Translations under genes and position numbers: made by a program | Part shown: positions 36,711-47,814 of the stretch, piece after piece | Layout of the letters: every line of letters starts with the position of its first letter | Numbering within the stretch: position 1 is the first letter of the stretch | Notes under the pieces: model-generated | Database searches by the model: none | What the model was told of the DNA's origin: nothing | What the model saw: only the letters and a program-made list of their open reading frames with translations | Virus record (IMG/VR): IMGVR_UViG_3300032893_000735 | Span: 41,826-105,825 of that record | Strand: one strand, 5' to 3' | Source of the DNA: a virus | DNA length: 64,000 nt

Positions 36711-37327
36711 TGCGCAACCACCTGCCTGCTAAACTTCAGATGTGGAGCCGCCCTCCTGACCACGAGGGGAGGATATATCTTAGCGCGATGTGCGGTTCTT
36801 GCGGATTAAAAGGACCGCCTGCTTTGTATATCAAGGATGCGGACAGATTGTTTTGGGAAATGGTTAAGGAGGAACCAAAAATGAAATGTGACCACAGATT
36901 CGCCAGAGCCATGGAACTTTATCCTGGAAACGTAAAGGTTATCTGCGGACCCTGCGGGAAAACAGGACCATCGGGAGGGGCAAGTGTGGCTTTCGCCTAC
37001 AAACTGTTCTGGGAATCTGTTAAACTGAAAGAGGAAGGAAAGACAATGAATGAAGACTATGAGCGGGGAGTTATGGACGCGACTAAGCCTTTTAGTTCGG
37101 ACCCCGAAGAATGGGGTAACATACGTTTGGCCGAACGCCGCAAGTCACTTCTCGCCAAGAAGGTAACGAAGTGGGTAATTGTTATGAGGCGCGGGTTTGG
37201 CTTAGAGGAATCAATATTCCAAGGTCGTCTTTTTGATTCAAAAGAACGTGCAGATGAACATGCTAGGTCTACCATCGGAGATCAAACGCTAGGTGTATTC
37301 CCCCTCGAAATCGAGGTCCCAGCTTGA
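36710..37327 (+). CDS. Protein with duplicated zinc knuckle
   Basis: The product (205 aa) carries two copies of a Cys knuckle plus helix: MCGSCGLKGPP ... DRLFWEMVKEE and ICGPCGKTGPS ... YKLFWESVKLKEE (residues 27-55 and 79-110). The pattern is somewhat like half of the Lar restriction-alleviation family, but the match is weak. The C-terminal 90 residues are unrelated. TAATG overlap with the recombinase gene. Confidence 0.55.
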   Translation: MRNHLPAKLQMWSRPPDHEGRIYLSAMCGSCGLKGPPALYIKDADRLFWEMVKEEPKMKCDHRFARAMELYPGNVKVICGPCGKTGPSGGASVAFAYKLFWESVKLKEEGKTMNEDYERGVMDATKPFSSDPEEWGNIRLAERRKSLLAKKVTKWVIVMRRGFGLEESIFQGRLFDSKERADEHARSTIGDQTLGVFPLEIEVPA

Positions 37328-44292: not shown

Positions 44293-45519
44293 GTGCCAAA
44301 AAGAGTAGTAGATGGGGAGGGGATATGGGGGTCCGACAAGATCCTCCGGCTAAGTACGGAATTCCAGCCTGAATACGCCAACCTTCTTCCGCTCGCGGAA
44401 GCTAACGGAGTTTTCGAAGTTAACCCGCATAAAGTGTGGTCAAGGGTCTATGCCTACAACAGACGGAACGTAACTGTCGAGTGGGTCCAAGAACTTCTCA
44501 ACGAACTCGTGGAGGTCGGTCTTCTCTTGATATGGGAGGACAACGGCAAAGTGTGGGGATTCTGGGACGGGAACGAAAAGGCCGGACGGTTGCCGAAAGA
44601 GTCAGAGCAAAAGAAGTATAAAAACCTCCCACCGAACCCTCCCAAAAATCTCAGCGAAGTCTCAGCGGAGACTCAGCGGAGACTCAGCGGATTCTCAGCG
44701 GAGCTTCCGCTGAATCTCCCCCCTAGGTTTGGTATGGTTAGTAATGTAATGGTTAGTATAGGAACGGACCCTGCGGGGCTCGGTTCTAATTTTTCAAATC
44801 CAGAAAACGGACAAGACTGCGAGGAAGATGTGAACCTGAAGAGATTCAAAGACGAGATGGCAACCATCGGAGTAAACCACGGATTTAAGGTGAAGGCATA
44901 TGACGACGCTTGGGCGGAGTTGAAGACTCTAACCACTGCCCACGGATCTCAGGCGGTCCTGAACGACTTCGACGAGTTCCTGTCCGAGAGTGAAGGTGAA
45001 GAATTCCCGAAGGGAGTTTTGCAGAAGTACCAGTACATCGCCGCCGACCGGCTTTTGGGGAACTCGCCCACGTCGGCAAAGGCGGAAATCAAGTCTCCCG
45101 CCGTGACTGACCTCTGCCGAGAACTCACCTACATGTCCGATGGGGTAATTTCCTTCATCGACAAGCAGAAGATCAAGCTGGCTGAGTTGCTGAAGGACTG
45201 GACGGTAGACGAAATCAAGGCCGTGTTCCGCGAGTGGCTGGACGCCCAAGACGTGAATGACGCCAAGAATGTCCAGTACCTCCCTGGCAAGTTCGTACAG
45301 ATTGCCGACTCCAAGTGCTATTCTTTGCGTAGGAGCCGTCAGGAGAAGGCTGCCGAGGCCGAGGCTAGGGCAGCTAAGGTCAAAGAGCTACAAGAGGCCG
45401 CAGAACGCGATCTAGAGGCATCCAGGAAGAAGAGGGAAGAGGAAGAACAGGTTCTGGACCCACTTGGGCTGTTCTCAGACGAAAATAATTCTACCAGTGT
45501 CGCGGAAGGTGTGGTATAA
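44293..45519 (+). CDS. Replication initiator-like protein containing iterons
   Basis: The product (408 aa) has an N-terminal winged-helix-type domain (residues 7-95: ILRLSTEFQPEYANLLPLAEANG, in parts) of the kind found in phage replication initiators and replisome organisers, a linker, and a C-terminal helical domain with a coiled-coil tail. Five 11-bp repeats lie in the linker-coding DNA, as lambda O carries its origin inside the gene. The GTG after AAAGGAGG was chosen. It is followed by the methyltransferase gene. Initiator function is inferred from the fold pattern and the iterons. Confidence 0.65.
   Translation: MPKRVVDGEGIWGSDKILRLSTEFQPEYANLLPLAEANGVFEVNPHKVWSRVYAYNRRNVTVEWVQELLNELVEVGLLLIWEDNGKVWGFWDGNEKAGRLPKESEQKKYKNLPPNPPKNLSEVSAETQRRLSGFSAELPLNLPPRFGMVSNVMVSIGTDPAGLGSNFSNPENGQDCEEDVNLKRFKDEMATIGVNHGFKVKAYDDAWAELKTLTTAHGSQAVLNDFDEFLSESEGEEFPKGVLQKYQYIAADRLLGNSPTSAKAEIKSPAVTDLCRELTYMSDGVISFIDKQKIKLAELLKDWTVDEIKAVFREWLDAQDVNDAKNVQYLPGKFVQIADSKCYSLRRSRQEKAAEAEARAAKVKELQEAAERDLEASRKKREEEEQVLDPLGLFSDENNSTSVAEGVV
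44650..44704 (+). other. Candidate replication origin: five 11-bp iterons
   Basis: CTCAGCG starts at 44650, 44661, 44672, 44683 and 44694, at exact 11-bp steps, with the full unit CTCAGCGGAGA. The period is not a multiple of three, so the repeat is not kept for the protein. An inverted TTCCGCTGA follows at once, then an AT-richer stretch with ATGGTTAGTA twice (44736-44758). Confidence 0.7.
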
Positions 45520-45527
45520 TCCAGAAA

Positions 45528-47372
45528 ATGGACAAAGCACTTACAGTTGGGTCGCTATTCGCGGGTATAGGCGGCTTCGACCTTGGATTTGAGAGAGCGG
45601 GATTTGAGGTAAATTGGTGCGTCGAGATCGATCCGTTCTGCCGAAAGGTCTTAGCCAAGCATTTTCCGAACGCCAAACGGTATGAAGACGTTAGGGAAGT
45701 TGGAAAACACAATTTGGAACCAGTGGACGTGATTTGTGCTGGGTTCCCTTGCTTTCCGTCAGGGAGCCTAGTTCTTTCTTCTAAGGGGTATCAACCTATT
45801 GAAAACATACGGGTAGGCGATCTTGTGCTTACCCATAAAGGTAGGTGGAGAAAGGTCACAGGAACCGGTGGTAGAAATAATGCGCCACTTGTTACTCTTA
45901 AAGGACAAGGACATTGCGGATTAGAGGCTACTCCCGACCATCCATTTTGGAGCAGAAAAACTAAAGGATATTATCCTTCTGTCAACGGTAAAAGGAAGAA
46001 TTTACGTGTATTTGACGGAGAAGCCTCGTGGACTGATGCGAAGGATATGTCGGGTTTGAGATGGGCTTGTCCTACGTCGGTGGAACCTCTTCCCGTTCCT
46101 GTTATAGAGCCTCTGAACAACCGTTGCAAGACTCCCCCGGTTCAGGATGAAAAATTTTGGTGGATTGTCGGGCGGTGGTTAGGAGATGGTTGGTGTCAGC
46201 AGACTCAGAGGCCGGATCGCCCTGAAGGGGAATTGTGGGGTAAATTTGTAATATGCTGCGACCATGTTGAAGCTGATGAGTTGGAGTTGAAAATATCAGA
46301 AGTATTTGGTATTTCTCCTAGAAAAGAAGTATGCCGAACTGCTACCAAATTTTACATAGGAGATAAGTCAACTTGTACGTGGTTTGAATCTAACTTCGGA
46401 AAAGGAGCCTCCGAAAAAACATTACCGGCTTGGGTGTACGGGATGCCTGAAAGATTTCGAACTGCCCTTCTTGAAGGTTACAAGAGTGCCGATGGGTCTA
46501 CAAATAAGCCTGGAAATCATCGTTTTACGACGGTAAGCAAGTCTCTTGCAACCTCGATTCGTTTATTATCTGAAACTTTGGGTTTTAGTAGTTCTTTGCA
46601 CCACTATGAAATTCCCCCGACGACGGTTATTGAGGGGCGAGTTGTAAACCAAAAACCTCAGTATCAAGTAGTTATGAATCAAAATCCTCGTAGCAACGGG
46701 ATGCGAGATGAAAAACATAACTGGTATAAGGTACGAAGTTCTAAATCCTGTGGAAAATTTACTGATGTATTTAATATTGAGGTAGAAGAAGACAATACCT
46801 ACGTGGTAGAAAACATAGTAGTACACAACTGTCAAGATATTTCCGTAGCTGGAAAAGGTGTTGGAATTTCAGGAGAACGAAGTGGACTCTTCTTTGAAGC
46901 GGCAAGGATCATTAGCGAGATACGACCGCGATACGCAGTCTTGGAAAATGTACACGCCCTCCTTGTTCGGGGAATGGACCGAGTTCTCGGGACGCTTTCC
47001 GAAATCGGGTATGATGCGGAGTGGCATACTATTCGAGCTTCGGAATTCGGGTTGCCGCAAGAGAGAGAGAGAATCTGGATTGTTGCCTACCCTTCCGAAG
47101 AGCGAAACGAGAGATTCTTCGAAAGCCTCTATTCTAGCGAAGTTGGACAGAGGTGGTCGGGTGGCGAGACGGATTTGCAGTCGATCATCGATCTTGCGCT
47201 CGTCGGATCAAATAGTTTCCCTAAACCCTTGCTTTGCGGAGTGGATGACCGGCCTACCGGTTGGGTGGACAGAGTTGGATCTTGTGGAAACGCAGTAGTA
47301 CCGCAGATTCCAGAGTGGATAGCAAAACGGATACTTGAAGTTGAAGGCGTCCAGAAAATGGACAGGAGCTAA
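45528..47372 (+). CDS. DNA (cytosine-5) methyltransferase interrupted by an intein
   Basis: The precursor (614 aa) carries a methyltransferase of 254 aa split by a 360-aa intein (residues 75-434). The host enzyme has motif I FAGIGGFDLG (11-20), motif IV GFP|CQDIS joined only after splicing, motif VI ENV, motif VIII QERERIWIVA and motif X GNAVVPQI. It would methylate phage DNA or guard it from restriction. The start codon lies in a near palindrome behind a TATAAT (45515), and its end (GVQKMDRS) is a perfect palindrome. The target-recognition region is short, so specificity cannot be guessed. Confidence 0.92.
   Translation: MDKALTVGSLFAGIGGFDLGFERAGFEVNWCVEIDPFCRKVLAKHFPNAKRYEDVREVGKHNLEPVDVICAGFPCFPSGSLVLSSKGYQPIENIRVGDLVLTHKGRWRKVTGTGGRNNAPLVTLKGQGHCGLEATPDHPFWSRKTKGYYPSVNGKRKNLRVFDGEASWTDAKDMSGLRWACPTSVEPLPVPVIEPLNNRCKTPPVQDEKFWWIVGRWLGDGWCQQTQRPDRPEGELWGKFVICCDHVEADELELKISEVFGISPRKEVCRTATKFYIGDKSTCTWFESNFGKGASEKTLPAWVYGMPERFRTALLEGYKSADGSTNKPGNHRFTTVSKSLATSIRLLSETLGFSSSLHHYEIPPTTVIEGRVVNQKPQYQVVMNQNPRSNGMRDEKHNWYKVRSSKSCGKFTDVFNIEVEEDNTYVVENIVVHNCQDISVAGKGVGISGERSGLFFEAARIISEIRPRYAVLENVHALLVRGMDRVLGTLSEIGYDAEWHTIRASEFGLPQERERIWIVAYPSEERNERFFESLYSSEVGQRWSGGETDLQSIIDLALVGSNSFPKPLLCGVDDRPTGWVDRVGSCGNAVVPQIPEWIAKRILEVEGVQKMDRS
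45750..46829 (+). mobile_element. Intein with LAGLIDADG homing endonuclease inside the methyltransferase
   Basis: The intein begins with Cys1 (CFPSGSLVLSSKGYQPIE) and ends VVHN, followed by Cys as the +1 residue. Block A (CFPSGSLV), block B-type residues (TPDHPFW), the endonuclease motifs WIVGRWLGDGW and ALLEGYKSADGS, and block G (VVHN) are all present, so both splicing and homing look intact. It sits exactly before the catalytic Cys of the methyltransferase (GFP|CQDIS), so the first extein residue after splicing is the enzyme nucleophile. No copy of the dispersed palindrome occurs inside it. Confidence 0.92.
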
Positions 47373-47373
47373 A

Positions 47374-47814
47374 ATGGAAACTTCCACAAAATGGGATCTA
47401 CGATTTTTGAATCTAGCCAAAGAGGTTGCCTCATGGAGTAAAGATCCTCCGACTCAGGTGGGTGCGATTATCACCAGAGGAAAGAAGGTAGTCTCTTTGG
47501 GTTTCAACGGGTTTCCTTCTGGGATTGTGGATGATTCTAGGTTGGATGACCGGCCGACGCGACTCGGAATGACGATCCACGCTGAGCCCAACGCAATTCT
47601 CCAAGCCAAACAAGACCTGTCTGGATGTACGATTTACGTTTGGCCGTTTATGCCGTGTTCCGACTGCGCTCTTTTGGTGGTACAATCTGGAATCAAGCGA
47701 GTTGTTGCCCCTAGATCCGACAATCCGAGGTGGGCAGACAGCTTCACGCTGTCCGAAGAAATTTTCAACGAAGCAGGTGTATTTGTCCAGAAAATGGACA
47801 AGGAGATTTTATGA
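47374..47814 (+). CDS. dCMP/CMP deaminase
   Basis: The product (146 aa) has the zinc-dependent deaminase motifs HAEPNAI (about residues 68-74) and PFMPCSDCA (93-101). It likely converts dCMP to dUMP for dTTP synthesis, as the family does in phages. A palindrome encodes FVQKMDKE at its end, and the next gene starts just behind it. Confidence 0.88.
   Translation: METSTKWDLRFLNLAKEVASWSKDPPTQVGAIITRGKKVVSLGFNGFPSGIVDDSRLDDRPTRLGMTIHAEPNAILQAKQDLSGCTIYVWPFMPCSDCALLVVQSGIKRVVAPRSDNPRWADSFTLSEEIFNEAGVFVQKMDKEIL

Follow-up and report, generated by a model that had tools for sequence, protein, structure and literature searches.

From sequence comparison and structure models, we consider it likely that a class 1 homing intein resides in the α chain of a phage C5-cytosine DNA methyltransferase that is probably composed of two subunits, the β chain being nested in the same gene in another frame. 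The nested frame, which bears motif IX of this enzyme class, is strongly supported at the sequence level and is the more interesting of the two features. The DNA analyzed (the window) is a 64,000-nt stretch of an IMG/VR virus record of 105,825 bases. Coordinates of the features are given in Table 1.

Table 1. Features of the methyltransferase gene, its intein and the nested frame (positions in the window)
Feature	Position	Strand	Details
C5-cytosine DNA methyltransferase precursor (α frame, frame A)	45528..47372	+	614 codons; spliced product 254 aa
N-extein	45528..45749	+	motif I FAGIGG (45558-45575) up to GFP
Class 1 intein with LAGLIDADG endonuclease	45750..46829	+	360 aa
Intein Cys1, block A nucleophile	45750..45752	+	TGC codon
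Intein block B, T-P-D-H	45930..45941	+	aligned with other inteins
First LAGLIDADG aspartate	46185..46187	+	GRWLGDGW; intein alignment
Second LAGLIDADG aspartate	46491..46493	+	GYKSADGS; intein alignment
Intein block G, VVHN	46818..46829	+	terminal Asn is AAC at 46827-46829
+1 Cys, catalytic Cys of methyltransferase motif IV	46830..46832	+	TGT codon
C-extein	46830..47369	+	ENV 46944-46952; QERERIW 47058-47078; motif X GNAVVPQ 47286-47306
Nested β ORF, +1 frame (frame B)	46850..47298	+	149 open codons; stop 47296-47298
Shine-Dalgarno-like CAGGAG for β	46870..46875	+	six bases upstream of GTG 46882
Most likely translated β	46882..47298	+	GTG start, 138 aa; alternatives GTG 46858, TTG 46861
Motif IX in β	47224..47277	+	NPCFAEWMTGLPVGWTEL; profile comparison with canonical motif IX

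The intein and the catalytic cysteine

The methyltransferase ORF matched Pfam PF00145 (DNA_methylase, 4.5e-45), phrog_363 (3e-70) and TIGR00675 (1.7e-42), and M.HhaI was the Foldseek fold match of the enzyme core in the AlphaFold model. Motifs I (FAGIGG), IV (GFP/CQ, the slash marking the splice junction), VI (ENV), VIII (QERER) and X (GNAVVPQ) were all found in frame A. When the insert is taken out, GFP and CQDIS join in frame to give ...DVICAGFP-CQDISVAGKG..., and motif IV is restored; it is uninterrupted in the intein-free relatives, as in L107 (DVICGGFPCQDISVA). An earlier note on this DNA had placed an intein here, with its +1 cysteine as the nucleophile of the methyltransferase. Both statements were borne out, the former to the exact base, by the junction codons, the restored motif, the Pfam and NCBIfam matches, and the AlphaFold and Foldseek results.

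The insert itself matched Hint_2 (1.3e-6), LAGLIDADG_3 (PF14528, 3.3e-5) and, above its cutoff, the NCBIfam model intein_Cterm. It has the hallmarks of a class 1 intein, namely Cys1, TPDH in block B, VVHN in block G, a cysteine at +1 and the Hint fold; block F reads VFNIEVEEDNTYVV. Both LAGLIDADG motifs of the endonuclease, with their catalytic acidic residues, are present, and it matched I-DmoI structures. Blocks A, B, F and G and both LAGLIDADG aspartates align with those of 11 other inteins, in agreement with the note's view that the endonuclease motifs are intact. In the AlphaFold model of the intein, for which an alignment of relatives was supplied, the pLDDT of the blocks was mostly 85-98, and Foldseek returned TliVMA (best E 4.7e-18), PI-SceI and I-DmoI. 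PI-SceI and TliVMA likewise combine the Hint fold with an inserted two-motif LAGLIDADG endonuclease, but they occupy another site in another host protein and share only 13-16% identity with the insert. The intein differs from the exteins in composition (GC of 43.6% versus 50%, GC3 of 36% versus 48-51%).

In the splicing reaction, Cys1 would form a thioester, the +1 Cys would take this thioester over, and cyclization of the terminal Asn would let the intein leave. The freed +1 Cys would then serve as the methylation nucleophile. Alleles without the intein would be the expected target of the LAGLIDADG part, which should cleave them at the conserved codons of motif IV. The chemistry predicts an inactive precursor, because the nucleophile, at +1, would be blocked by its amide bond to an insert of 360 residues placed in the active-site loop.

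Motif IX in the overlapping frame

The α chain contains motifs I-VIII and X and has neither motif IX nor an ordered target-recognition region. In profile comparisons the tail of frame A matched the canonical tail at motif X only, and AlphaFold predicted residues 536-590 of this frame to be disordered. The canonical motif IX was found in frame B, with a probability of 93% and an E of 3e-7 (for one comparison); frame C matched neither motif IX nor motif X. Since motif IX lies in the +1 frame and motif X in the methyltransferase frame, the enzyme is probably composed of two subunits.

The selected frame changes to +1 after motif VIII, as judged from the pattern of substitutions. Compared with L107, the nearest intein-free relative, the region 5' of the intein has mismatch fractions of 0.26/0.16/0.53 at codon positions 1/2/3, as is ordinary for frame A coding. 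From motif VIII to X the pattern inverts (0.53/0.26/0.19 at the frame A codon positions), and identity is 78% in frame B versus 43% in frame A. Over this segment, frame B was the more conserved in all eight relatives compared. Across the family its identity was 0.52 versus 0.36 for frame A, while in the N-half the values were 0.23 and 0.56, respectively. In the Streptomyces phages Euratis and phiBT1 (L023 and L024; ~1176-2277), frame A ends beyond motif VIII, and both IX and X are encoded in frame B. A note in the phiBT1 record states that the methylase may be inactive; it may be a two-chain enzyme instead.

Stop codons were counted in 77 methyltransferase loci, the window included, most of which had been chosen by frame A similarity only. 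The null was obtained by shuffling synonymous codons with the frame A protein kept. Between motifs IV and X, frame B had 55 stops versus 311 expected, and frame C had 780 versus 753. The internal controls for frame B were at expectation, both in the N-half (207 versus 204) and in the neighboring ORFs (770 versus 803). For the window alone the stop test was weak (1 versus 2.1 expected). A cross-validated frame B profile gave 157 bits for real sequences versus 70 for shuffles, with 70 of 71 above every shuffle; the window scored 137 bits against a shuffle maximum of 90.5. Frame C also scored above its null in the profile test, because the nucleotides are constrained, yet its stops are as numerous as expected. 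As the loci are related, the significance of both tests is overstated; the internal controls come from the same loci. A chance ORF is ruled out by the stop counts with these controls, together with the cross-validated profile.

In the window, the 146-codon ORF at 46858-47298 matched phrog_1008 at 7.5e-16, and frame B reached 153.5 bits against a synonymous null with a mean of 61 and a maximum of 82. PHROG 1008, labeled "DNA methyltransferase", was matched by all 92 of the 92 frame B proteins, and its label hides the overlapping +1 frame. The β chain had no match in Pfam, NCBIfam or PDB; its AlphaFold model was poor (mean pLDDT 65, pTM 0.28) and had no PDB fold match. Among loci fetched by frame B alone, frame A was intact in 80 of 80 and β was never found without α, which fits a subunit. 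Frame B is also retained 3' of the intein in other carriers (L291, L303, L311/B22, L335 and ESV2). We make no claim of a β frame in the P1-type Dmt, where the signal was weak (5 stops versus 12.9) and frame C was also low. In Paenibacillus phage Bloom, the overlapping coding sequences BLOOM_56 and BLOOM_57 are both annotated as methyltransferase. An out-of-frame ORF inside a phage methylase has been described in the ShiLan insertion, where it is a mobile HNH endonuclease (PMC11855218); the ORF of the window, in contrast, is conserved and belongs to the methyltransferase gene itself, which it overlaps.

Likely start of the nested frame

Several weak codons could serve as the start of β in the window, and GTG 46882 is the most likely of them on sequence grounds. 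It lies 17 codons past the catalytic Cys, the same position as the start in L033, L040, L059, L067 and L075. With this start, the intein is therefore located just before, and not inside, the probable β gene. Among the relatives, frame B has an ATG with a ribosome site upstream of motif IV in 23 of 77 loci, versus 8.1 expected. In loci of the L026 type the frame is open throughout and begins at an ATG in 79 of 80, mostly 4 bases after the ATG of the methyltransferase. The window's frame B contains stops 5' of the intein, and we initially favored the idea that the intein had broken a nested gene; this reading lost ground, as a β start 17 codons past the catalytic Cys is also seen in several relatives that have no intein.

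Same-site inteins in other phages

The insertion site is not unique, contrary to what had been supposed: comparison across phage C5 methyltransferases found inteins at the same junction to be common. The same residue junction was found in P1 Dmt (OP279344), Propionibacterium phage B22, Lactobacillus phage Nyseid, EBPR siphovirus 2 (ESV2), Mannheimia phage 587AP2 (whose host frame is broken 3' of the intein), Pseudomonas phage Lana, Erwinia phage Y3 (Erwinia jumbo phages) and RCS47. A scan with the intein alignment added dozens of IMG/VR contigs, and the C-extein matched a C5-methyltransferase profile in 66 of the 84 parsed inteins, a set that includes a few contigs fetched twice. The inteins of P1 Dmt, RCS47, B22, Nyseid, ESV2, Lana and Y3 likewise have the form P(or D)/C...HN/C at motif IV and are class 1 with LAGLIDADG. 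The P1 Dmt-type inteins are only 25-41% identical to that of the window, and most of their hosts are long methyltransferases encoded in one frame, motif IX included, unlike the window's gene. The examined records of these phages do not name an intein. At the end (near 2571) of the same-site intein of L290 the +1 residue is Ser (VVHN/SQGFSLAG); splicing would therefore put Ser in place of the catalytic Cys, and the resulting methyltransferase should be altered or inactive.

Judged by alignment, the intein joins this widespread same-site family as a new member, and its distribution has the pattern of a selfish homing element, because the nearest methyltransferases are intein-free (72, 68 and 65% identity over the motif I-VIII exteins) and the nearest inteins lie in distant methyltransferases (extein identity of 44-49%, intein identity of 46%). 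The patchy occurrence at one site over unrelated phages would result from homing to a conserved coding site. A patchy, horizontally moving distribution is known for the DNA methylase inteins of mycobacteriophages (PMC5050341, PMC9957025), and the location of inteins within conserved active-site motifs is a general theme (PMC5050341). Those inteins, like the window's, reside in phage methyltransferases and are ~32% identical to it, but their hosts are of the N4/N6 type, a different enzyme class and site from the C5 enzyme. The reports of phage methylase inteins that we found concern N4/N6 enzymes; within a literature search mostly confined to papers outside subscription, no paper was found that describes an intein at the catalytic Cys of C5 enzymes or a nested frame in phage methyltransferases.

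Genomic surroundings

Close to the methyltransferase gene lie a PD-(D/E)XK nuclease on the upstream side and, on the downstream side, a dCMP deaminase, an RNA ligase and a primase-helicase. No restriction gene was recognized beside it, where several neighbors had no family match, and the methyltransferase looks like an orphan enzyme. An ORF upstream of it contains tandem 11-base repeats (CTCAGCGGAGA) at 44639-44715. A dispersed palindrome, GTCCA-NNNNN-TGGAC (mostly GTCCAGAAAATGGAC; for example at 45521-45534, 47351-47364 and 47787-47800), has 28 near-copies of its core in the window versus 0.08 expected, and 37 exact copies in the 105.8 kb record, where the reversed pattern is absent (0). Several are located where genes start, often directly 5' of the ribosome site, and by sequence they appear operator- or stoperator-like. 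Outside the window, the same phage has a second intein-like insert with LAGLIDADG motifs (G000:C1 ~36787-36960, minus strand, L364), which ends in ...LTHN/T; its host looks like a portal protein.

Discussion

Two-polypeptide C5 methyltransferases are known in M.EcoHK31I and M.EaeI, which belong to restriction-modification systems. In these enzymes β is nested in α in another frame and carries motif IX; to our knowledge, neither has an intein. We liken the window's enzyme to the M.EcoHK31I type on that general description of it, the nested alternate-frame ORF with motif IX being present here. In the two-subunit model, β would be translated separately, in the +1 frame, from an initiation codon shortly 3' of the intein, and would supply motif IX and probably target recognition (through a conserved recognition-like region). 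The α chain would require splicing and β would be independent of it, so the intein would gate α only.

Frame B might instead encode an independent protein, such as a sliding-clamp-binding effector. In intein-free relatives, QL[TSDEN]LF-like motifs occur at the N-terminus of the frame (14 versus 0.23 for the strict pattern and 25 versus 1.1 for the loose one, against synonymous shuffles), and the resemblance of such QLTLF-like sequences to sliding-clamp-binding motifs is a lead only. We find this alternative unlikely, as the C-terminus of β matches the canonical C5-methyltransferase motif IX that α lacks, β was accompanied by α in every locus fetched by frame B, and the window's β is without the N-terminal motif.

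The earlier note also raised the possibility of a timing or redox switch, that is, of an intein kept as a regulator whose conditional splicing would start methylation late or in response to a redox cue. The insertion site does make activity depend on splicing, and conditional splicing has precedent in other inteins, such as that of mycobacterial DnaB (PMC6195587). The sequence lends the switch no support: an intein-specific cysteine pair was not found, and the sole extra cysteine nearby, at position -5, belongs to the normal methyltransferase sequence, 48 of 78 intein-free relatives having it too, which rules out a redox switch through it. Patchy same-site inteins across unrelated phages are, moreover, what is expected of a selfish element. 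We therefore regard a regulatory role as very improbable. As a selfish element, the intein would persist because the site is near-invariant and its excision has to be precise.

Programmed ribosomal frameshifting could join frames A and B into one protein with motif IX, and would suit the division of motifs I-VIII and IX between the frames as well as the frame B of phiBT1 and Euratis with IX and X. This has slighter prospects still, for starts with ribosome sites occur in frame B itself (as does the ATG of the L026 type), and, with motif X back in frame A, the ribosome would have to shift twice. That the element is a decayed intein or the relic of a methyltransferase is scarcely credible, the splicing, endonuclease and methyltransferase motifs being all intact over 614 codons without a stop, and nothing speaking for decay beyond the atypical GC3.

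Returning to the two-subunit enzyme, a broader picture may be sketched from these sequences, and we offer it tentatively. Hundreds of phages may hide a nested β in their C5 methyltransferase. In the intein-free ones, a β with a sliding-clamp motif could tie methylation to replicating DNA; in those with the intein, β would start just past it, and one mRNA would yield a splicing-dependent α and a splicing-independent β.

The same-site intein family, P1 Dmt included, offers ready systems to ask whether, in vivo, one residue can act both as the nucleophile of an enzyme and as that of splicing. Of greater importance than the intein is the overlapping frame, a same-strand double-coding region of considerable length that is retained throughout a large family of phage enzymes. 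The frame under selection changes measurably along the gene, and databases label the region as methyltransferase only. If it is confirmed, annotation pipelines that admit one frame lose half of the enzyme, and predictions of specificity made from frame A alone would be wrong.
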